A stretch of 64,000 bases of DNA from Stenotrophomonas sp. ASS1 (GTDB lineage Bacteria; Pseudomonadota; Gammaproteobacteria; Xanthomonadales; Xanthomonadaceae). Positions 8,012-64,000 of the stretch are shown here, in pieces. A model generated the notes under the pieces. That model saw only the letters and a program-made list of their open reading frames with translations, was not told the DNA's origin and made no database searches. The position numbers and the translations under genes are program-made. The stretch spans positions 3,306,001-3,370,000 of the forward strand of contig NZ_CP031167.1 in NCBI RefSeq assembly GCF_004346925.1, given 5' to 3'. Each line of letters starts with the position of its first letter. Within the stretch, counting starts at the first letter, position 1.

Positions 8012-9657
8012 GTGCATCGGTCCAACGCCCCGCCCGCCTTCCCGCGTTGGCGAACCTTCGCCGCTGGCGGCCGCAGCTGTCCACCGAAGCACTGATCACA
8101 CTGACCAGCCTGTTCTTCGCAGTGGCCGGCAATGGCCTGTTCTGGCACAGCGCGATGGCCAGCCATCCGGGCAGCCTGCGCTACGCGCTGTCGCTGCTGC
8201 TGTTGCTGCTCGGTGCGCACGGCGTGCTGCTGGGCATCCTGGTCTGGCGCTGGAACGCCAAGGTGGTGATCAGCCTGTTGCTGCTGGTGACCGCATTCGC
8301 TGCGCATTACATGAGCCGCTACCACATCTACCTGGATGCGGACATGCTGCGCAACGTGCTGGCGACCGATCCCAAGGAAAGCCGCGAGCTGATGACCATA
8401 TCGCTGGTGTGGCCGGTGCTGTTGCTGGCAGTGCTGCCGATGGCGGTGCTGTGGCGCGTGCAGCTGCGCCGCCGCAGCTGGGGCCGCAGCCTGCTCTGGC
8501 GCGTCGGCTTCCTGGTCGTGGCGGCAGTGACCGCGGTGGGCGGCGCATTGATCTCGTTCCAGGATGTCTCGGCACTGATGCGCAACCAGCGCGAAGTGCG
8601 CTACCTCGCGACACCGGCCAACGTGCTGCTGGGCATGCCGCGTGCACTGCGCGGTGACAACCCGGTGCAGCGCGCGCCGAAGCTGCCGATCGGCACCGAT
8701 GCCAAGGCCACCCCGCGCGCGCCGGCCAGCAAGCCGCGCCTGCTGGTGATCGTCATGGGCGAGACCGTGCGCGCGCAGAACTGGGGGCTCAACGGTGGCC
8801 GCAACACCACCCCGGAACTGGCGCAGGCCAGCGTGATCAATTTCCCGGACATGCACTCGTGCGGCACCAGCACCGAGGTTTCGCTGCCGTGCCTGTTCTC
8901 GCCATGGGGTCGTCACGACTACGACGAGAAGAAGATCCGCGCGCACCAGTCGTTGCTGCACGTATTGAACCGTGCCGGTATTACGCCGCTGTGGCGTGAC
9001 AACCAGTCCGGCTGCAAGGGCGTGTGCGAAGGCCTGGACTTCCAGTCATTATCCGATGCGACCACCCCGGGCCTGTGCGCTGACGGCCGCTGCATGGATG
9101 AAATCCTGCTGCAGGACCTGGCCACCCAGGTACGTGCAAAGCCGGGCGACCGCGTCGTGGTGCTGCATCAGCTGGGCAACCACGGCCCGGCCTACTTCGA
9201 GCGCTACCCGCCCGCGTTCCGCCGCTTCACCCCCACCTGCGATACCCGCGACATCGGCCGCTGCTCGCGCGAAGAGATCACCAACAGTTACGACAATGCC
9301 GTGCTGTACACCGATCACTTCCTGACCAAGACCATCGGTACGCTGCAGGGCATGCAGGACTACGACACGGCGATGCTCTACCTGTCCGACCACGGCGAGT
9401 CGCTGGGCGAGAAGGGCCTGTTCCTGCATGGCGTGCCCTACGCCATCGCGCCGGCCGAGCAGACCCGGGTACCGATGACGATGTGGTTCTCGCAGGGCTT
9501 CGCCAGCAGCCGCGGGCTGGACCTGCAGTGCGTGCGCAAGCGTTCGGCGGCCTACACCGACCATGACAACCTGTTCCCGTCGGTGCTGGGCCTGATGCAG
9601 GTGAAGACCTCGCTGTACGAGCGCGACCGCGACGTGTTCGCCAACTGCGAGGGTTGA
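8008..9657 (+). CDS. eptA: Phosphoethanolamine--lipid A transferase (EptA/MCR family)
   Basis: A 549-residue inner-membrane sulfatase-fold enzyme that transfers phosphoethanolamine from phosphatidylethanolamine to lipid A, lowering surface negative charge. Five N-terminal transmembrane helices are followed from about residue 240 by the periplasmic catalytic domain. Zinc-site and catalytic motifs are visible: MGETVRAQN (E252), CGTSTEVSLPC with nucleophile T289 and a C285-C295 disulfide, HQLGNHGP, and SDHGESLGE. Three further cysteine pairs occur (CKGVC, CADGRC, CDTRDIGRC), as in MCR/EptA proteins. It overlaps the PAP2 gene by four bases. Products of such genes confer polymyxin tolerance. Sequence alone does not tell lipid A specificity from core-heptose specificity. 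Confidence 0.9.
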   Translation: MSASVQRPARLPALANLRRWRPQLSTEALITLTSLFFAVAGNGLFWHSAMASHPGSLRYALSLLLLLLGAHGVLLGILVWRWNAKVVISLLLLVTAFAAHYMSRYHIYLDADMLRNVLATDPKESRELMTISLVWPVLLLAVLPMAVLWRVQLRRRSWGRSLLWRVGFLVVAAVTAVGGALISFQDVSALMRNQREVRYLATPANVLLGMPRALRGDNPVQRAPKLPIGTDAKATPRAPASKPRLLVIVMGETVRAQNWGLNGGRNTTPELAQASVINFPDMHSCGTSTEVSLPCLFSPWGRHDYDEKKIRAHQSLLHVLNRAGITPLWRDNQSGCKGVCEGLDFQSLSDATTPGLCADGRCMDEILLQDLATQVRAKPGDRVVVLHQLGNHGPAYFERYPPAFRRFTPTCDTRDIGRCSREEITNSYDNAVLYTDHFLTKTIGTLQGMQDYDTAMLYLSDHGESLGEKGLFLHGVPYAIAPAEQTRVPMTMWFSQGFASSRGLDLQCVRKRSAAYTDHDNLFPSVLGLMQVKTSLYERDRDVFANCEG

Positions 9658-9662
9658 GGGTT

Positions 9663-10213
9663 GTTCGGCAGGGCTTGCAGCCCTGCACCTGCAGAGGCAA
9701 CCGCAACCGCAACGGCCGAAGCAGCAGCAACAGCGTGCATTCCGTGGGATGGCGGGGTGGGTCCGGTGGCGGGGGACGCCGTGAATCCGTCCCTGGAGGC
9801 TTGGCAGCCGCATCCATGCGGCTGACACCCCCGCCACCGGACCCACCCCGCCTTCGACAGTTTTCCGCGATCTGATGGAACGGCCTTGGGGTCAGATCCG
9901 TTTTCCGGAGGAAACCGGATCTGACCCCAGATTCATTTCGATATCTGACAGATGTGTCGACCAAGGTCGACACCTACCCACAGCACACGGAATCTGTCGG
10001 AGGTGGGGCGGTGTCGGAGTGCGGGGTGTCAGCCGCATGGATCGGTGTCGGAGTGCGGGGTGTCAGCCGCATGGATGCGGCTGCCAAGCCTACAGGGACG
10101 TACTTGCGGCGTCCCCGCACTCCGACACCGCCCCGCCAAACCACGGAATACCCGCTTCTGACGTTGACGTTGCTTGAAGGCTTCGGCAGGTGCAGGGCGC
10201 AGCCCTGCCGAAC
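9663..10213. repeat. Composite palindromic intergenic element, copy 1 (uninterrupted)
   Basis: This 551-bp block fills the space between eptA and the M2 peptidase gene. Its ends are inverted: it opens with TTCGGCAGGGC plus a GCAGGG/CCCTGC hairpin and closes with the complementary arrangement. Inside are hexamer-like CAACCG/CAACAG tracts on the left and ACGTTG repeats on the right, and CCGTGGG-type boxes. It also holds a perfect 25-bp stem at 9752-9776/9829-9853, a GGGGTCAGATC hairpin (9889-9928), a SMAG GTCGACC palindrome (9955-9977), and a second perfect 22-bp stem at 10005-10026/10113-10134. The same modules recur in reverse order at 60156-62280. Confidence 0.8.
9752..9853. repeat. 25-bp perfect inverted repeat with nested hairpin loop
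   Basis: Arms 9752-9776 and 9829-9853 are exact complements, separated by 52 bases. The loop contains its own small hairpin (AGCCGCAT/ATGCGGCT). Together they could form a very stable RNA or cruciform structure. No protein frame of credible composition uses it. Confidence 0.85.
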
Positions 10214-12256: not shown

Positions 12257-12543
12257 GAAAAGGGGCGGGTCCGCGAGGATCCGCCCCTTTCCGGTAGTGC
12301 CGGCCGCTGGCCGGCAACTGCACGGTGGACATCTGTCTGGCAGCCGGCCAGCGGCCGGCTCTACCGAAACAGCAATCAAACGAAGGCCAGATGTGCGGCT
12401 GGCAGGCCAACGCGGCCCCGGCGGCGAAATGAGAAAAGGGGCGGGTCCGCGAGGATCCGCCCCTTTCCGGTAGTGCCGGCCGCTGGCCGGCAACCACGCG
12501 ATGAAGACCCAACGGGCAGCCGGCCAGCGGCCGGCTCTACCGA
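12203..12543. repeat. Tandem duplication of gene 3' end, terminator and SMAG pair
   Basis: The segment starting AACGAAGGCCAG at 12203 (last 18 codons of the M2 peptidase gene) recurs at 12379 with an offset of 176 bp. Each copy carries the coding tail, the stop region, the GGGGCGG terminator hairpin (12258-12290 and 12434-12465) and a head-to-head pair of GTAGTGCCGGCC-type SMAGs (12294-12364 and 12470-12540). The second copy has one base altered around the stop (AAATGA for AATTGA). The copied coding tail has no upstream gene body, so it is a relic. Confidence 0.88.
12258..12290 (+). terminator. Terminator-like hairpin after the M2 peptidase gene (first copy)
   Basis: Two bases after the stop, AAAAGGGGCGG and its complement CCGCCCCTTT form a strong stem around GGTCCGCGAGGATCC-type sequence. 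The A-rich left and T-ending right arms are consistent with bidirectional termination. An identical hairpin recurs at 12434-12465. Confidence 0.7.
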
Positions 12544-12551
12544 AAAGCCTG

Positions 12552-12944
12552 TCAGCTGTTCTTCTTCGCCGCCATCGCCGCAGCCAGCTCGGCCTTGAAT
12601 TCCTCGAAGGTCTGGCCCTTCTCCTTCGCTTCGGCCTGCGCGGCATCGCGCAGCGCATCGGAGTACATCAGGCGCACCGGCGTGCCGTTGCGCTCGTGCA
12701 GTTCACCGGCCTGCATGATCAGCGCCAGCACCTGCGCAGCGCTCTCGCTGTGGCCAGCGATGCGGCCGTCCATGCCCAGCACCCATTCGCCGTCACGGCG
12801 CACGACACCGGCCAGCAGGGTGCGCTGCGCATCGCGCAGCTCGGCATGCGGTTCCACCGGCGATGCCTGCGCGGCGGCCTTGTTGGCGGCCTGCTTTTCC
12901 TGGCGACGGCGCTGGTCGCGGCGGGTCTTGGAGCTGGTGGACAT
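12552..12944 (-). CDS. Conserved hypothetical protein with basic N-terminus
   Basis: A 130-residue protein I do not recognise as a named family. The start at 12944 (MSTSSKTRRDQRRRQEK) gives a strongly basic, helix-prone first 25 residues. The middle region (VVRRDGEWVLGMDGRIAGHSESAAQVLALIMQ) looks like a compact folded domain. The C-terminal Ala/Glu/Lys helix ends FEEFKAELAAAMAAKKNS. No signal peptide, membrane segment or catalytic motif is evident. It lies immediately downstream (in minus orientation) of the siderophore-interacting protein gene, 83 bp away, but a functional link is not supported by the sequence. Confidence 0.72.
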   Translation of the reverse strand: MSTSSKTRRDQRRRQEKQAANKAAAQASPVEPHAELRDAQRTLLAGVVRRDGEWVLGMDGRIAGHSESAAQVLALIMQAGELHERNGTPVRLMYSDALRDAAQAEAKEKGQTFEEFKAELAAAMAAKKNS

Positions 12945-15519: not shown

Positions 15520-15690
15520 ACACGGTGGGAGAAGCGGAACACCGCTGCCGAAGGCGCAACGCCCGTAATCGCTCAGGCCCGATACCACCCGTAACAGAAC
15601 TCTGGAGAGACCGGTTCGATCCGGCGCCGAAGGGGCACGAAGCTGCGGTCCGCCGCGCTTTTAAACTCTCAGGCAAAAGGACAGAGGGGC
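15520..15690 (+). promoter_or_regulatory. Tandem glycine riboswitch
   Basis: Two glycine aptamers lie in series. The first (about 15524-15590) has GGGAGA, then GCCGAAGG and GCTCAGGC. The second (about 15600-15686) has CTGGAGAGACC, GCCGAAGGGGCA and the canonical ending AAACTCTCAGGCAAAAGGAC with AGAG. This is the classic gcv-type arrangement in which glycine binding turns on the glycine cleavage genes. The linker and 3' platform (GGGGCGCCCC at about 15687 and a GCCG/CGGC hairpin) lie before the gcvP start at 15757. Confidence 0.95.
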
Positions 15691-15756
15691 GCCCCGCAGA
15701 CCGCCGACCGGCGGCTTGTGCCCGTGCGTGTGCCCTTTCCTGACGGATCCTTCGCC

Positions 15757-58708: not shown

Positions 58709-60151
58709 ATGACGACCCCCACGCTGCACCGGCCACACCCCATGTCCACATCGCCATCGACCTACACCCGCCAGCGCCCCCTGCTGTGGCTGGTTTCGTT
58801 GGCGATCTTCATGCAGATGCTGGACTCGACCATCGTCAACACGGCCTTGCCGGCGATGGCGGCCAGCCTGGGCGAAAGCCCGCTGCAGATGCAGTCGGTG
58901 GTGTTCAGCTACGCATTGGCGGTAGCCACCTTCATTCCCGCCTCAGGATGGATCGCCGACCGCTACGGCACGCGTCGTACCTTCCTGGTAGCGATCATCC
59001 TGTTCACCCTCGGCTCGCTGGCCTGCGCGCTGGCCCAGCACCTGCACCAGCTGGTTGGGGCACGTGTGCTGCAGGGTATCGGCGGTGCGATGCTGCTGCC
59101 GGTCGGCCGCCTGGCAGTGATGCGTTCGGTGCCACGCGAGGACTTCCTGCGCGCGATGAGCTTCATCGCCATCCCCGCGCTGGTCGGCCCGTTGATCGGC
59201 CCGACGTTGGGTGGCTGGCTGGTCGAGATCGCGTCGTGGCACTGGGTGTTCCTGATCAACCTGCCGATCGGCGTGATCGGTTTCATCGCCGCGATGAAGA
59301 TCATGCCCGACCACTACGCCAGCCATCGCACCCGTTTCGACCTGCGCGGCTACATCATGCTGGCCTTTGCGATGGTGGTGCTGTCGCTGGCGCTGGACGG
59401 CATCTCCGGGCTCGGAACGCCACATGCGCTGGTGATGCTGATGACCGTGGCCGGCCTGGCCGCACTGGTCGGTTACTGGCTGCATGCCGCCAACTCCACC
59501 GCGCCGTTGTTCTCGCTGGCCCTGTTCCGCGTGCCCAGCTACCGCATCGGCATCCTTGGCAACCTGTTCTCGCGCATCGGCAGCAGCGCCATGCCGATGC
59601 TGATCCCGCTGCTGCTGCAGGTCGGCCTGGGCCTTGGCCCGATGAACGCCGGCCTGATGATGGTGCCGGTGGCGGCGGCCGGCATGGTGTCGAAGAAGCT
59701 GGCGGTGAAGCTGGTCGAGCGCTACGGCTACCGCCGCGTGCTGATGGTCAACACCGTGCTGGTGGGCCTGGCGATGGCCAGCTTCATCCTGATGACACCC
59801 GGCCAGCACCTGGCCTGGCGCCTGCTGCAGCTGGCGTTCTTCGGCGCGGTCAATTCACTGCAGTTCACCGTGATGAACACCGTGACGCTGCGGGATCTGG
59901 ATCGCGAGTTCGCCAGTTCCGGCAACAGCCTGCTGTCGATGGTGATGATGCTCGCCGCCGGTTTCGGTGCCGCGGCGGCCGGCAGCCTGCTGGCCGCGTT
60001 CGGCAATCACCTGGACAGCAACAGCGCCACCGCGGCACTGCATGCGACGTTCCTGTGCGTGGGCGCGATCACTCTGACCTCGACGATGATCTTCTGGCAG
60101 CTGCCGGACACCAAGCCGGAGCCACGGCAGGTCGAGCACGTCGCGGAGTGA
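58709..60151 (+). CDS. MFS drug-efflux transporter, DHA2 type (MdtD-like)
   Basis: A 480-residue protein with about fourteen transmembrane helices. Characteristic DHA2 motifs are the first helix WLVSLAIFMQMLDSTIVNTALPAM, motif A GWIADRYGTRRTFLVAI, and motif C IPALVGPLIGPTLGGWLVEIASWHWVFLINLPIGV. It resembles E. coli MdtD and the EmrB group; neighbours do not identify a substrate. ATG 58709 is the first start; MSTSPST at 58742 is an alternative. Its stop is followed at once by the second composite element. Confidence 0.9.
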   Translation: MTTPTLHRPHPMSTSPSTYTRQRPLLWLVSLAIFMQMLDSTIVNTALPAMAASLGESPLQMQSVVFSYALAVATFIPASGWIADRYGTRRTFLVAIILFTLGSLACALAQHLHQLVGARVLQGIGGAMLLPVGRLAVMRSVPREDFLRAMSFIAIPALVGPLIGPTLGGWLVEIASWHWVFLINLPIGVIGFIAAMKIMPDHYASHRTRFDLRGYIMLAFAMVVLSLALDGISGLGTPHALVMLMTVAGLAALVGYWLHAANSTAPLFSLALFRVPSYRIGILGNLFSRIGSSAMPMLIPLLLQVGLGLGPMNAGLMMVPVAAAGMVSKKLAVKLVERYGYRRVLMVNTVLVGLAMASFILMTPGQHLAWRLLQLAFFGAVNSLQFTVMNTVTLRDLDREFASSGNSLLSMVMMLAAGFGAAAAGSLLAAFGNHLDSNSATAALHATFLCVGAITLTSTMIFWQLPDTKPEPRQVEHVAE

Positions 60152-60313
60152 GGGGGTTCGGCAGGGTTGCACCCTGCACCCGCAGAGGCCCAACCCGAAG
60201 CAACAGCAACAGCAACAGCAACAGCGAGCATTCCGTGGGATGGCGGGGCAGTGTGGGCTTGCAGGACACGCCGTAAACCCGTCCATGAAGTGACCCCCGA
60301 GACTTGGACGGGG

Positions 60314-61147
60314 TCAGGCGGCCGATTGGGCCTGCTCCCGGTACTTTACCGGGCTCAGACCTTTCAGTTTCAGTTTGATGCGTTCTTCGTTGTAGTACTG
60401 GATGTATTCCACCAGCCCAGCCTCCAGACTCTCGAGGCTGTCAAAGCTGTTCAGGTAGAAGAATTCCGACTTCAGCGTTCCAAAGAAGCTCTCCATCGCC
60501 GCATTGTCCAGGCAGTTGCCGCGCCGGGACATGCTTTGCTTCAACGAGTGCTTTTCCAGCATGTGCCGGTAGTTTTCATGCTGGTACTGCCAGCCCTGGT
60601 CGGAGTGGATCATGGGGCGCTCATCCGGGGAAAGCTTCTTGATGGCCTCCTCCAGCATTTGACCCACCAGATCAAATACGGGCCGACGCTTGATCTGATA
60701 AGCCACGATTTCGCCGTTGTAGAGGTCCATGATCGGCGACAGGTATAGCTTCATGCCCTGCACCTTGAACTCGGTCACGTCAGTCACCCACTTCTGGTTG
60801 GGCCGCTCGGCATGGAACTGGCGATTGAGGTCATTGCCAACCACAACATTGGCCGCCCCCTTGAAGGCCTGGTAGCGCTTCACACGCACCCGCGATTTCA
60901 GCCCCATCTCCCCCATCAGGCGCTGAACCCGCTTGTGATTGGTCCGATGACCCTGATTGGCTAATTCCAGCGTCACCGTGCGATAGCCATAGCGCCCTTG
61001 GCTTTGATCGTAGATTGCACGGATGCGCTCGCACAGGGCTGCCTCATCCTGATCCGGATGGGCCAGGACATGGTTCTGGTAATAGAACGTACTGCGTGAC
61101 AGCTCAGCTGCTTCGAGCAGAAGCGACAGCGTATGAACCTGCCTCAA
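60314..61147 (-). CDS. IS3-family transposase OrfB (DDE integrase core)
   Basis: A 277-residue catalytic subunit. The DDE triad sits in WVTDVTEFKV (first D), HSDQGWQY (second D) and NAAMESFFGTLK (E), with the HTH_21-like N-terminal part LLLEAAELSRSTFYYQNHV. The apparent TTG start at 61147 overlaps the OrfA stop; true expression is probably through a -1 frameshift from OrfA, for which an A7 run is present. Complete, no frameshift seen, so the IS may be active. Confidence 0.94.
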   Translation of the reverse strand: MRQVHTLSLLLEAAELSRSTFYYQNHVLAHPDQDEAALCERIRAIYDQSQGRYGYRTVTLELANQGHRTNHKRVQRLMGEMGLKSRVRVKRYQAFKGAANVVVGNDLNRQFHAERPNQKWVTDVTEFKVQGMKLYLSPIMDLYNGEIVAYQIKRRPVFDLVGQMLEEAIKKLSPDERPMIHSDQGWQYQHENYRHMLEKHSLKQSMSRRGNCLDNAAMESFFGTLKSEFFYLNSFDSLESLEAGLVEYIQYYNEERIKLKLKGLSPVKYREQAQSAA

Positions 61148-61665
61148 TCCTTGGACGGCTTGCGCTTTGCGTCCTGCGCCGCCTGCTCTTCCCGGATCAA
61201 GGCATCGAGTTTTTTTAGGTAGTCGGTCTCCGCACGCAGATAGGCGACTTCCTTGAGCAGCTCATCGCGGCTCATATCTTCAGGCGGCTTGGACGAACGG
61301 GTCTTCTTCATCGGCTTTCGGGGCGGCGGCGGAGGGGGTGCCAACGCTTGGGCACCGCCTTGAGCATACAGGCGCCGCCATCGCCCCACCGCGCCGGCAT
61401 CGCCAATTTGAAAGTAGGTGGTGGCCTCGCGCCCGGACAGGCCGTCCTGGCTCATCTTCTCCAGGACAGCCAGCTTGAACGGGAGGTCATAGGACCGGGC
61501 CTGGCGATGAAATCCCCGCCAACCATGCAGCCGATAGGTCGCCACCCAGCGCCTGACCGTGGAGAACTCCAGGCCGTGGCGACGGGCAATGGCTTTGACC
61601 GATGTGGAGGTCTTGCAGGCCTCTTTGGCGACCTGCAGTTTGAAACGCGCGTCGTATTTGTTCAT
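61144..61665 (-). CDS. IS3-family transposase OrfA (helix-turn-helix)
   Basis: A 173-residue DNA-binding subunit. ATG 61665 (MNKYDARFKLQVAKEACK) has GAGGG upstream. Two helix-turn-helix units are visible (SVKAIARRHGLEFSTVRRWVATYRLHG and GLSGREATTYFQIGDAGAVGRWRRLYAQGG), followed by a proline-rich linker and a leucine-zipper-like coil (ELLKEVAYLRAETDYLKKLDAL). The zipper region is where the frameshift site lies. Confidence 0.93.
   Translation of the reverse strand: MNKYDARFKLQVAKEACKTSTSVKAIARRHGLEFSTVRRWVATYRLHGWRGFHRQARSYDLPFKLAVLEKMSQDGLSGREATTYFQIGDAGAVGRWRRLYAQGGAQALAPPPPPPRKPMKKTRSSKPPEDMSRDELLKEVAYLRAETDYLKKLDALIREEQAAQDAKRKPSKD
61210..61216 (-). other. A7 slippery site for programmed -1 frameshifting in the IS
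   Basis: On the minus strand CTAAAAAAACTC encodes LKKL in OrfA. A -1 slip there enters a frame that stays open through to OrfB, giving a fused OrfAB transposase. IS3-family elements commonly use such A-rich heptamers. Confidence 0.75.
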
Positions 61666-61952
61666 GTATCCCTCGGGGTTGGATCTAGCGTCCAACTCCC
61701 GGGGGTCACTTCACCATGGGGGCTCGATGGCGCCATCCATGGCGCCAACGGTCCTGCAAGCCCACACCGCCCCACCTCTGACAGGTTCACGCGGCTGTGG
61801 GTAACGGCGACTGTTGGAACGCGCGGTTGTTGGTAGGTGTCGACCTTGGTCGACACATCTGTCAGATATCGAATTCCAGATTGGGGTCAGAGCCCGTTGC
61901 GCGCCAACGGGATCCGACCCCGTGCTCCGACAGATCGCGGAAAACTGTCGAA

Positions 61953-62213
61953 GGCGGGGAGGGTCCGGTTGCGGGGGCGTGAGCCGCATGGGCCCGAGGC
62001 ATGCCTCGGGCGAGTTGGGCAGGAGGCCCAACCCCGGTCTTGCCGTGTGCGCAGGACAGCGCACACGAGCAAGCGGCGACCGAGCTTACATGGGTGAGGG
62101 CGCTTTGCTTGCGAAGCACCGCTTCGCAAGCGCCCGAACGCACAGCCGCCAGCGGCTGGGCCGGGCCCCGGAGGGGGACTTGCAGCGTCCCCCGCAACCG
62201 GACCCACCCCGCC
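61953..62213. repeat. 25-bp stem with a 211-base multi-hairpin loop
   Basis: Arms 61953-61977 and 62189-62213 pair with one mismatch. The loop (61978-62188) contains further palindromes: CCCGAGGCATGCCTCGGG, GTTGGGC/GCCCAAC, GTGTGCGC/GCGCACAC and GGGCGCTT/AAGCGCCC, each in order. It would fold into a branched structure if transcribed; no protein frame of family character is found. Confidence 0.8.
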
Positions 62214-62286
62214 ATCCCACGGATTGCACGCTTTTGACGTTGACGTTGCTTCTGCAGGTGCAGGGCTGCAAGCCCTGCAATAATCC

Positions 62287-64000
62287 CTACCTTCCCATCA
62301 CCCGGGCGATCGCTTCCACCAGCAGTTCCCCGGTCACCGGCTTGCGCAGGAAGCCACCGATGCCGGCCGCCTCCACCTGCTGCTGCAGGTCCGGGTCGGT
62401 ACGTGCGGTCACCGCCAGCAGTGGCAGCATGTAGCCCTGGTTGCGCAGATGCTGGGCCAGCTCGAAGCCGCTCAGGCCCGGCAGGTCGAGATCCAGCAGG
62501 CCGACGTCGAAATCACCGGCACTGATCTCACGCAGTGCCGCCAGCGCATGGCCCGCATGTACCACCTCGTGCCCGCGCGCACTCAGCAGCCCGCGCACCA
62601 CATCGGCCACAGTCGCGTCGTCCTCCACCAGCAGTACCCGCAATGGCGGCATGTTGGCCGCGTCCTCGCGGTGCGTTTCACCATCTGCTTCGGCATCGGC
62701 ATCGACCACCATCGGCAACGGCAACGTCACGCCGAAGCAGGTGCCGCGACCGAGCTGGCTCTCCACCTGGATCCGCCCCTGCATCGCATGCGCCAGTTCG
62801 CGGCAGATCGCCAGGCCCAGGCCACTGCCGCCGTACTGCGCCGCGGTACGTGCACCATCGGCCTGCTCGAAGCGGCGGAACAGGCGTTGCTGTTGCTCCT
62901 GGCTGATGCCGGGGCCGGTGTCGCGCACTTCGAAATGCAGCGATCGCAGCTCGGCGTCGCTGCGCGCGTGCAGGGTGATGGTGCCGCGGCTGGTGAACTT
63001 GACCGCATTCGAAAGCAGGTTCAGCAGGATCTGCCGTACCCGCATCGAGTCGCCGGTGGCCTGCAGGCCGGGCGGCAACTGGTTGTCGAGGGTGAAGCGC
63101 AGGCCCTTCTGTGCAGCCAACGGGCCCATCAGCGCCGCCAGGTCCTGCAGCAGGCAGCTCAGCGCGAACGGCTTGGACTGCAACTCCAGACGGCCCGATT
63201 CGATCCGCGCCAGGTCCAGCGCATCGTTGACCAGATGCAGCAGGTGCTCGCCGGCGTGGCGGATTGATTGTGTATAGCCGCGCTGCTGCGGATCCAGCGG
63301 TGAGGACAGCAGCAGCTCGCTCATGCCGAGCACACCGGTCATCGGCGTGCGGATCTCATGACCAAGGTTGGCCAGGAAGCGGGTCTTGGCCGCCGACGCC
63401 TGCTCGGCCAGCTCCTGCTTGTGCAGCGCCAGCTGATAGGCGTGGCGACGCTGCAGGCGCCGACGGTACAGCCAGGCGAACCAGCTGGTCAGCAGCAGCG
63501 CGAACGAGGCCAGCACCAGCAGGCCAGACAGGCTGCGCCACCACGGTGGCTGCACGCGGAATTCCAGGCTCTGCACCCGTGACCAGACATGGTCGGCCGA
63601 CCGCGCCTGCACTTCCAGCCGATAGCTGCCCGGTGCCAGCCGCGAGAACAGGCGCTCACCGGCCGGTCCCACTTCCACCCAGTCCGGGTCATAGCCGGCC
63701 AACCGGTAACGATAGGTATTGGACGCCGAATCGGCGAACGACAACAGGCGCGCGACGATGCGCAGATCGCGGTCGCCATCGGCGATCTGCAACGGCGTGT
63801 CGTGGGTGAGGTCCAGCACCTGCTCGTTGCGGCGCACCTCCACCCGCTCGATCACCAGCGGCGCACGCCGCATCGAGGGCCGCACCTGCTCCGGGTCGAA
63901 CACCACCACACCGGACGGCGTACCCGCCACCAGATGGCCGTCTCCCGACATCACCAGCGTGTGCTCGCGGAATTCCTGGCTCGGCAGGCCGTCATGCACG
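62287..64000 (-). CDS. Hybrid sensor histidine kinase/response regulator (5' end outside window)
   Basis: C-terminal 570 residues of a large two-component hybrid; the N-terminal part lies beyond the window edge. In order are seen a Y_Y_Y-like beta domain (YRYRLAGYDPDWVEVGPAGERLFSRLAPGSY), one transmembrane helix (LLVLASFALLLTSWFAWLY), HisKA with FLANLGHEIRTPMTGVLG, the ATPase domain (LLNLLSNAVKFTSRG, DTGPGIS, GGSGLGLAICREL), and a receiver with its Asp in FDVGLLDLDLPGLSGFEL and K in FLRKPVTG. Such proteins usually begin with a periplasmic beta-propeller. Ligand unknown. Confidence 0.93.
   Translation of the reverse strand, partial: VHDGLPSQEFREHTLVMSGDGHLVAGTPSGVVVFDPEQVRPSMRRAPLVIERVEVRRNEQVLDLTHDTPLQIADGDRDLRIVARLLSFADSASNTYRYRLAGYDPDWVEVGPAGERLFSRLAPGSYRLEVQARSADHVWSRVQSLEFRVQPPWWRSLSGLLVLASFALLLTSWFAWLYRRRLQRRHAYQLALHKQELAEQASAAKTRFLANLGHEIRTPMTGVLGMSELLLSSPLDPQQRGYTQSIRHAGEHLLHLVNDALDLARIESGRLELQSKPFALSCLLQDLAALMGPLAAQKGLRFTLDNQLPPGLQATGDSMRVRQILLNLLSNAVKFTSRGTITLHARSDAELRSLHFEVRDTGPGISQEQQQRLFRRFEQADGARTAAQYGGSGLGLAICRELAHAMQGRIQVESQLGRGTCFGVTLPLPMVVDADAEADGETHREDAANMPPLRVLLVEDDATVADVVRGLLSARGHEVVHAGHALAALREISAGDFDVGLLDLDLPGLSGFELAQHLRNQGYMLPLLAVTARTDPDLQQQVEAAGIGGFLRKPVTGELLVEAIARVMGR

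Follow-up and report, generated by a model that had tools for sequence, protein, structure and literature searches.

The composite palindromic element of Stenotrophomonas sp. ASS1 described here is built around a small folded core, which is probably a high-copy, mirrored, TwoAYGGAY-like RNA element at gene 3′ ends that is predicted, from its sequence, to bind CsrA/RsmA. The conserved unit is each stem and not the 551-bp composite. Conservation is highest in the pair of ANGGAY hexaloops that each stem encloses, a feature missed in the preliminary description, and not in the arms or at the GTCGACC centre. The element itself is real, widespread and strongly structured. Two copies, block A (9663-10213) and block B (60156-62280), lie in the window, that is, the whole stretch of 64,000 nucleotides of the ASS1 genome that was analyzed.

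Block A starts 5 nt past the TGA (9655-9657) of an EptA-type gene, and about 80 nt separate its other end from a peptidase M2 gene that follows. It is self-complementary, with arms at 9732-9831 and 10057-10156 that are 83% complementary and inner stems (9748-9775/9828-9855 and 10002-10026/10113-10137) that are 96% complementary, and RNA folding of its stems gave z values of -8.8 to -9.9. The left terminal hairpin (GGCAGGGC..GCCCTGC, 9663-9698), which pairs inversely with 10180-10198, is followed by a hexamer tract of the CAACSG/CAACAG type (9699-9741), whose copy number varies among loci, and by a CCGTGG box recognized in the sequence (9742-9747). The CAACAG tract was considered as an Hfq-type ARN motif, an idea that was dropped since the CAACGG and CAACGT versions of the tract, compared by eye, break the motif. 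The left core, comprising the hairpin pair and 15 bp of the surrounding stem P1, was found on the minus strand at 9760-9842 (model R1, 101.2 bits, E 5.6e-22), with hexaloops ATGGAT (9812-9817) and AGGGAC (9789-9794) on that strand and a full stem formed by 9748-9775 and 9828-9855. In the middle of the block stand a GGGGTCAGATC hairpin (9887-9929), within which GGGGTCAG matches the GGGGWSAS motif, a feature of TIR families according to PMC3733652, and a REP-like centre, a GTAG-tagged palindrome (GTAGGTGTCGACCTTGGTCGACAC on the minus strand, 9954-9977) of the kind described as GTAG REPs in PMC2613905 and PMC3733652. The right core was found on the plus strand at 10046-10128 (model R1, 94.8 bits, E 1.9e-20), with hexaloops ATGGAT (10071-10076) and AGGGAC (10094-10099) on that strand, and a second hexamer tract (ACGTTG) with the right terminal hairpin closes the block (10159-10213). 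Self-comparison also revealed a 34-bp tandem duplication in the right half (10004-10071), which gives two alternative 5′ arms for one 3′ arm.

A plasmid BLAST gave no matches, and under relaxed thresholds the only Rfam matches were hairpins below cut-off on the GC-rich stems (miRNA families, Ysr224 and others). Elsewhere in the window, a glycine riboswitch (RF00504, 62.6 bits) was detected on the plus strand at 15592-15694. One peptide-like string recurs in the six-frame translations of 12260-12660, which suggests another intergenic repeat downstream of the M2 gene.

Block B contains the modules of block A with the centre reversed and is flanked by convergent stop codons at 60149-60151 (plus strand) and 62287-62289 (minus strand). 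The preliminary description had reported a composite that occurs twice in the window, in opposite orientations and each time directly after a stop codon, and both observations held. The span given there for block B does contain the composite, and 1,428 bp of it, which had not been separated out, belong to an IS3-type element (60286-61713, minus strand) lying within the hairpin-2 hexaloop of the left core. This insertion has ORFs at 60314-61147 and 61144-61695, HTH_Tnp_1 and rve domains, 25-bp ends that are 92% complementary and a 3-bp target duplication, CCA (60283-60285 and 61714-61716). The left part of block B up to the insertion occupies 60156-60285; the remainder (61714-62280) holds the rest of the left half, the reversed centre and a right half lengthened by hairpins that bear AGGACA and AGGAG loops.

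The same IS3-type end was found at the identical hairpin-2 hexaloop position (GCCCCCAKGG|) in nine ASS1 loci (L067, L069, L071, L086, L092, L227, L230, L234 and L239), and a hairpin loop appears to be the insertion target of this element. These nine loci show four different flanking 14-mers and hence did not arise by copying of a single interrupted element. Locus L108 ([Pseudomonas] hibiscicola ATCC 19867) also has the IS3-type end at this position: at L108:1550-4000, a left half of the composite with the flank of ASS1 locus L090 is followed by the insertion and then by a right half at the M2 site. This junction is either a rearrangement breakpoint or an assembly join, and the other end of the insertion reads N. 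IS1397 and ISKpn1, likewise members of the IS3 family with a palindromic repeat as target, insert into palindromic units (REP) according to PMC1525189, whereas the ASS1 element enters the hairpin-2 hexaloop.

The core folds as a long stem P1 (25-27 bp) around two small hairpins, whose loops read C-ANGGAY-G on one strand. Hairpin 1 has 5 bp (CATGGATG) and is followed by a linker that mostly ends in RAG; hairpin 2 has 3+3 bp with a 5-nt bulge and the loop CANGGAYG, and is followed by the second P1 arm. For covariation, 23 diverse cores oriented on the ANGGAY strand were aligned. The search pattern behind these cores prescribed the loop letters and the bulge type, and the alignment additionally required hairpin 1 to pair; P1, the closing pair of hairpin 2 and the stem of hairpin 2 were left free. 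In this alignment, 23 of the 28 pairs changed on both sides, the covariation score was 0.564 against 0.169 after shuffling, and 90.1% of the pairing cells were paired, compared with 66.8% in shuffled and 38-47% in slid versions.

Loop conservation was then counted in cores found by the model. Among 107 ASS1 cores (10 of 117 matches were dropped as not 83 nt long), CANGGAYG was present in 106 and 105 of the two loops and the C-G closing pair in all 107 at both hairpins. Among 71 cores of other genomes, the loops agreed in 68 and 69 cases and the closing pair in all 71 at both hairpins; these cores came from three sets (A3-A5), whose 42, 41 and 20 matches yielded 77 rows of 83 nt, less six rows with fewer than 22 of 28 pairs. 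The conservation of GGA in these counts is partly built in, because the seed pattern fixed the loop letters. The P1 arms are highly variable, with 62 distinct 15-nt arms among the 107 ASS1 cores and a mean identity of 54%, against 94% for the loops and closing pairs. Despite this variation, P1 forms 25-27 uninterrupted pairs in 86 of the 107 cores. Beside hairpin 1, a GA..GA tandem mismatch was observed in 47 of the 107, with TG..CA (23), CC..GG (18) and CA..TG (15) as alternates. Lengthened cores carry two more hairpin kinds with GGA in the loop in 18 of 19 cases, all 18 on the ANGGAY strand (AGGACT, AGGACA, AGGAAT, AGGAC or AGGAG, with ACGAC as the exception); by eye, these cores also contain other added hairpins without a GGA loop.

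The mismatches in P1 depend on the strand. Read on the ANGGAY strand, 102 ASS1 cores found by the pattern alone contained 29 G-T and 3 A-C mismatches, and the ASS1 cores found by the model gave a ratio of 30:3 (p about 1e-6). In other genomes, with P1 and small hairpins counted together, the ratio was 24:3 in 29 cores from the M2 locus, and 5:2 and 5:1 in two further sets of 25 and 19 cores, the former having been 10:7 before four antisense shadow rows were removed; the 23 seed cores gave 9:3. A double-stranded role, or copying from arm to arm, would predict equal numbers of G-T and A-C, and the excess of G-T therefore indicates that the single-stranded structure of the ANGGAY strand is under selection. 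The selection on structure suggested in the preliminary description was thus supported, and the wobble shows on which strand it matters. This asymmetry fits RNA and single-stranded DNA alike, and the strand test cannot separate them.

CsrA/RsmA is a global post-transcriptional regulator. Its high-affinity site, as described for CsrA/RsmE in PMC4005645, is an ANGGAX hexaloop placed directly on a stem and closed by a C-G pair, with N and X looped out. The core, in ASS1 as well as in other genomes, shows the same sequence features: an ANGGAN hexaloop on a stem, a variable second loop position and an invariant C-G closing pair. The consensus selected by SELEX is RUACARGGAUGU, and a CsrA dimer can bridge sites 10-63 nt apart with an optimum above 18 (PMC7652899); the two GGAs of each core are spaced 20 nt in the 83-nt model, within this range. 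CsrA needs no 25-bp stem, and the SELEX ligands reported in PMC7652899 were mostly short-stemmed, so P1 must serve something else too.

A csrA gene is present in the ASS1 genome. A CsrA match was found in 54 of 58 carriers of the core and in 63 of 80 non-carriers, the latter drawn in list order from about 260 (Fisher p 0.03); with good-quality genomes only, the numbers were 46 of 47 and 57 of 69 (Fisher 0.014). CsrA is so common that this co-occurrence says little. The one exception among the good-quality carriers, a genome that is 98% complete (G365), with 9 cores and 15 Y1 transposase matches, gave no CsrA match, which is either an assembly gap or a real exception, and three more carriers without a CsrA match have genomes 67-88% complete.

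The closest described structure is TwoAYGGAY (Rfam RF01731; Weinberg 2010, PMC2864571), which was predicted to bind CsrA (Gardner and Eldai 2014, PMC4333381). In both, a closing stem encloses two hairpins whose loops are of the AYGGAY type, and the second hairpin is preceded by AG and followed by CG. The ASS1 core differs in its hairpin 2, of 3+3 bp with a 5-nt bulge, and in its very high copy number, its mirrored pairs and its setting in a composite with REPs. RF01731 gave no match to block A up to E 5, and its best match in ASS1 scored 27.9 bits, below the curated cut-off of 43 bits; for this reason, the element is called TwoAYGGAY-like and was not filed as TwoAYGGAY. All three sub-cut-off matches in ASS1 cover the same bases on the same strand as cores of our model, and of four loci that match RF01731 the core model agrees at three (L182, L184 and L185) and misses one (L183).

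Many copies with covarying arms, the pattern anticipated in the preliminary description, were found. BLAST with block A gave at least 157 matches in the ASS1 genome (best 40 of 217 candidates scored) and matches in 23 of 41 genomes, ASS1 included. The covariance model detected at least 124 cores in ASS1 at E<=1e-3, a lower bound, as the best 150 of 3,842 candidates were scored. Numbers of this size rule out coincidence. The cores fall into at least 86 clusters, 48 with one detected core and 38 double, and 37 of the 38 double clusters are in minus-plus order. Lengthened or IS-broken cores may escape the model, and some of the apparently single clusters therefore include a disrupted partner core. 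In loci of other genomes, minus-plus order was found in 18 of 27 neighbouring core pairs less than 450 nt apart. With such a mirrored pair, a transcript from either side gets one ANGGAY core.

Gene positions were taken from a simple gene caller. Of 115 cases, 73 have the outer end pointing to a gene 3′ end, and in 68 of these 73 the core lies no more than 130 nt from the stop codon, a distance of which the outer part accounts for 97 nt in block A. Convergent genes flank 33 of 80 ASS1 loci (37 are codirectional and 10 divergent), compared with 11 of 49 gene pairs in the 64-kb window used as background (28 codirectional, 10 divergent; p 0.036 for the convergent enrichment). Single cores between codirectional genes were sense in 10 cases and antisense in 10, and this lack of a sense bias counts against a cis role.

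In the mechanism that we propose, each half of the composite encodes a conserved RNA fold that a CsrA/RsmA dimer would bind in bidentate fashion. Two such units commonly stand back to back, and read-through from either flanking gene would yield one of them in the binding sense. Lying mostly close behind gene 3′ ends, the units would be made within 3′ UTRs, and their cores would either titrate RsmA, acting together as a dispersed sponge, or anchor it to those mRNAs. The family would have multiplied like REP elements, its copies exchanging stems and centres.

At the M2 site, the element or part of it is kept in all 18 loci of the S. maltophilia complex that were compared (L099-L116), between the same two flanking genes, and 15 of the 18 have a covariance-model match. 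ASS1 itself is placed in this complex by its named neighbours. These elements differ in stems, cores and centres, and whole stems have been exchanged; stems differ between sister species even at one locus. Some of the loci are ended by contig ends, and L111 is degenerate. The draft contigs of several sister genomes stop inside the element (L099, L100, L103-L105, L107 and L109), and it therefore breaks short-read assemblies and is probably undercounted. The element is absent from the M2 locus of S. chelatiphaga and S. pennii, where about 110 bp are present; the divergence of these species is too great to define exact junctions. The same inner core occurs with unrelated stems in S. rhizophila-type strains and in some Xanthomonas. 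In wider surveys, the core was present in 38 of 151 genomes of the order and in 60 of 321 gammaproteobacterial genomes, ASS1 included in both, with the best 30 or the best 14 candidates scored in many genomes. The module order recurs at many ASS1 loci and at all 18 complex loci, so the modules do not occur only separately, and the existence of a larger assembly beyond the SMAGs is borne out. As a distinct element, the composite is recurrent and covarying and is not a fixed unit, 48 of the 86 clusters having one detected core.

The mobility of the composite as a unit, also suggested earlier, was not supported. Its halves also occur alone, stems and centres vary between copies, and no target duplication was recognized by eye. 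ASS1 has three Y1 transposase (RAYT-type) genes (L179, L180 and L181), each with GTAG palindromes of a distinct kind at its flanks; the outer parts of the composite were not found flanking any of the three, and 12 of 58 distant carrier genomes gave no Y1_Tnp match. A RAYT or TIRYT as mobilizer is therefore unsupported. Presence differs between ASS1 and genome G017 at one site. Two candidate clean empty sites were rejected: at L053 the ASS1 DNA is a different 845-bp stretch with an ORF, and the one at L108 is actually a junction of two loci through the insertion sequence. With regard to MITE criteria, the composite ends are mirrored, and the one site inspected closely is no clean empty site.

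These data bear on a different reading, in which the family is a REP/REPIN- or MITE-like DNA element, its hairpins are recognized as single-stranded DNA by a transposase or nuclease, and the resemblance to CsrA sites is fortuitous. Like REP, REPIN and BIME sequences, including SMAGs, the element is intergenic, palindromic, dispersed and often mirrored, with GTAG REPs in the composite centre; it differs in that the core itself lacks the GTAG tag, is much longer, shows covariation and has no link to a RAYT gene in ASS1. The high copy number, the patchy presence (38/151 in the order, 60/321 in the class), the difference between ASS1 and G017 and the entry of the IS3-type element into the hexaloop at nine ASS1 loci would suit a DNA element, as would a strand-specific wobble acting in single-stranded DNA, whereas none of the three Y1 genes is flanked by the outer parts and the 12 carriers lack a Y1_Tnp match. 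Moreover, CsrA accounts for the loop rule (a free N, a fixed GGA, a C-G closing pair and two such loops at 20 nt), and we know of no transposase that does. We consider this reading rather unlikely.

It is still less probable that the family consists of structural 3′-end elements, whose long stems would shield the ends of mRNAs, terminate transcription bidirectionally or serve as RNase III sites, with little importance for the loops. The outer ends facing gene 3′ ends (73/115), the enrichment of convergent pairs (33/80 against 11/49, p 0.036) and a P1 that keeps its length (25-27 bp in 86 of the 107 cores) but not its sequence would agree with such a function, but a consensus scan found no intrinsic terminator at block A, and an identity of 94% in loops and closing pairs against 54% in arms is the opposite of what a pure stem function would leave. 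Template switching and quasi-palindrome correction are mutational processes that make arms match. That they alone, without selection on structure, produced near-perfect and hypervariable arms (62 distinct in 107 cores) is highly improbable, because correction is blind to core orientation, yet the G-T to A-C ratio is 29:3 on the ANGGAY strand, and because gammaproteobacterial families share conserved loops, closing pairs and stem length; correction may still contribute to making the arms.

The predicted CsrA/RsmA-binding element would bear on how RsmA is controlled in this group. The published BLAST search reported in PMC7694677 did not find dedicated CsrB, RsmY or RsmZ RNAs in Xanthomonas. Little is known of RsmA antagonists in that genus; RsmU, the one described in PMC7694677, derives from a 3′ UTR. 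The element resembles CsrB/CsrC, RsmX/Y/Z and RsmU in its repeated GGA loops and possible titration of CsrA/RsmA; those are discrete RNAs, whereas ASS1 has hundreds of predicted sites over at least 86 loci. Among the titles and abstracts listed in searches of the open-access PMC literature, none dealt with dispersed CsrA-type repeats. The family might even be a selfish-looking interspersed repeat wired into the Csr/Rsm system across the Gammaproteobacteria, in which read-through at dozens of gene ends would provide hundreds of bidentate ANGGAY sites that jointly set free RsmA and replace CsrB/RsmY/RsmZ, a possibility that we put forward tentatively and lean somewhat against.

If the CsrA/RsmA reading is true, a single genome would hold at least 248 predicted sites for RsmA (two per core in 124 cores), with numerous copies also in unrelated genomes, and the control of RsmA without RsmY/Z would become directly testable. 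The hypervariable yet matched arms additionally raise the question of how both arms change together. A REP-like class of intergenic repeats would be linked, as RNA, to a specific protein partner, and the genome may carry dispersed decoys or landing sites for CsrA/RsmA.
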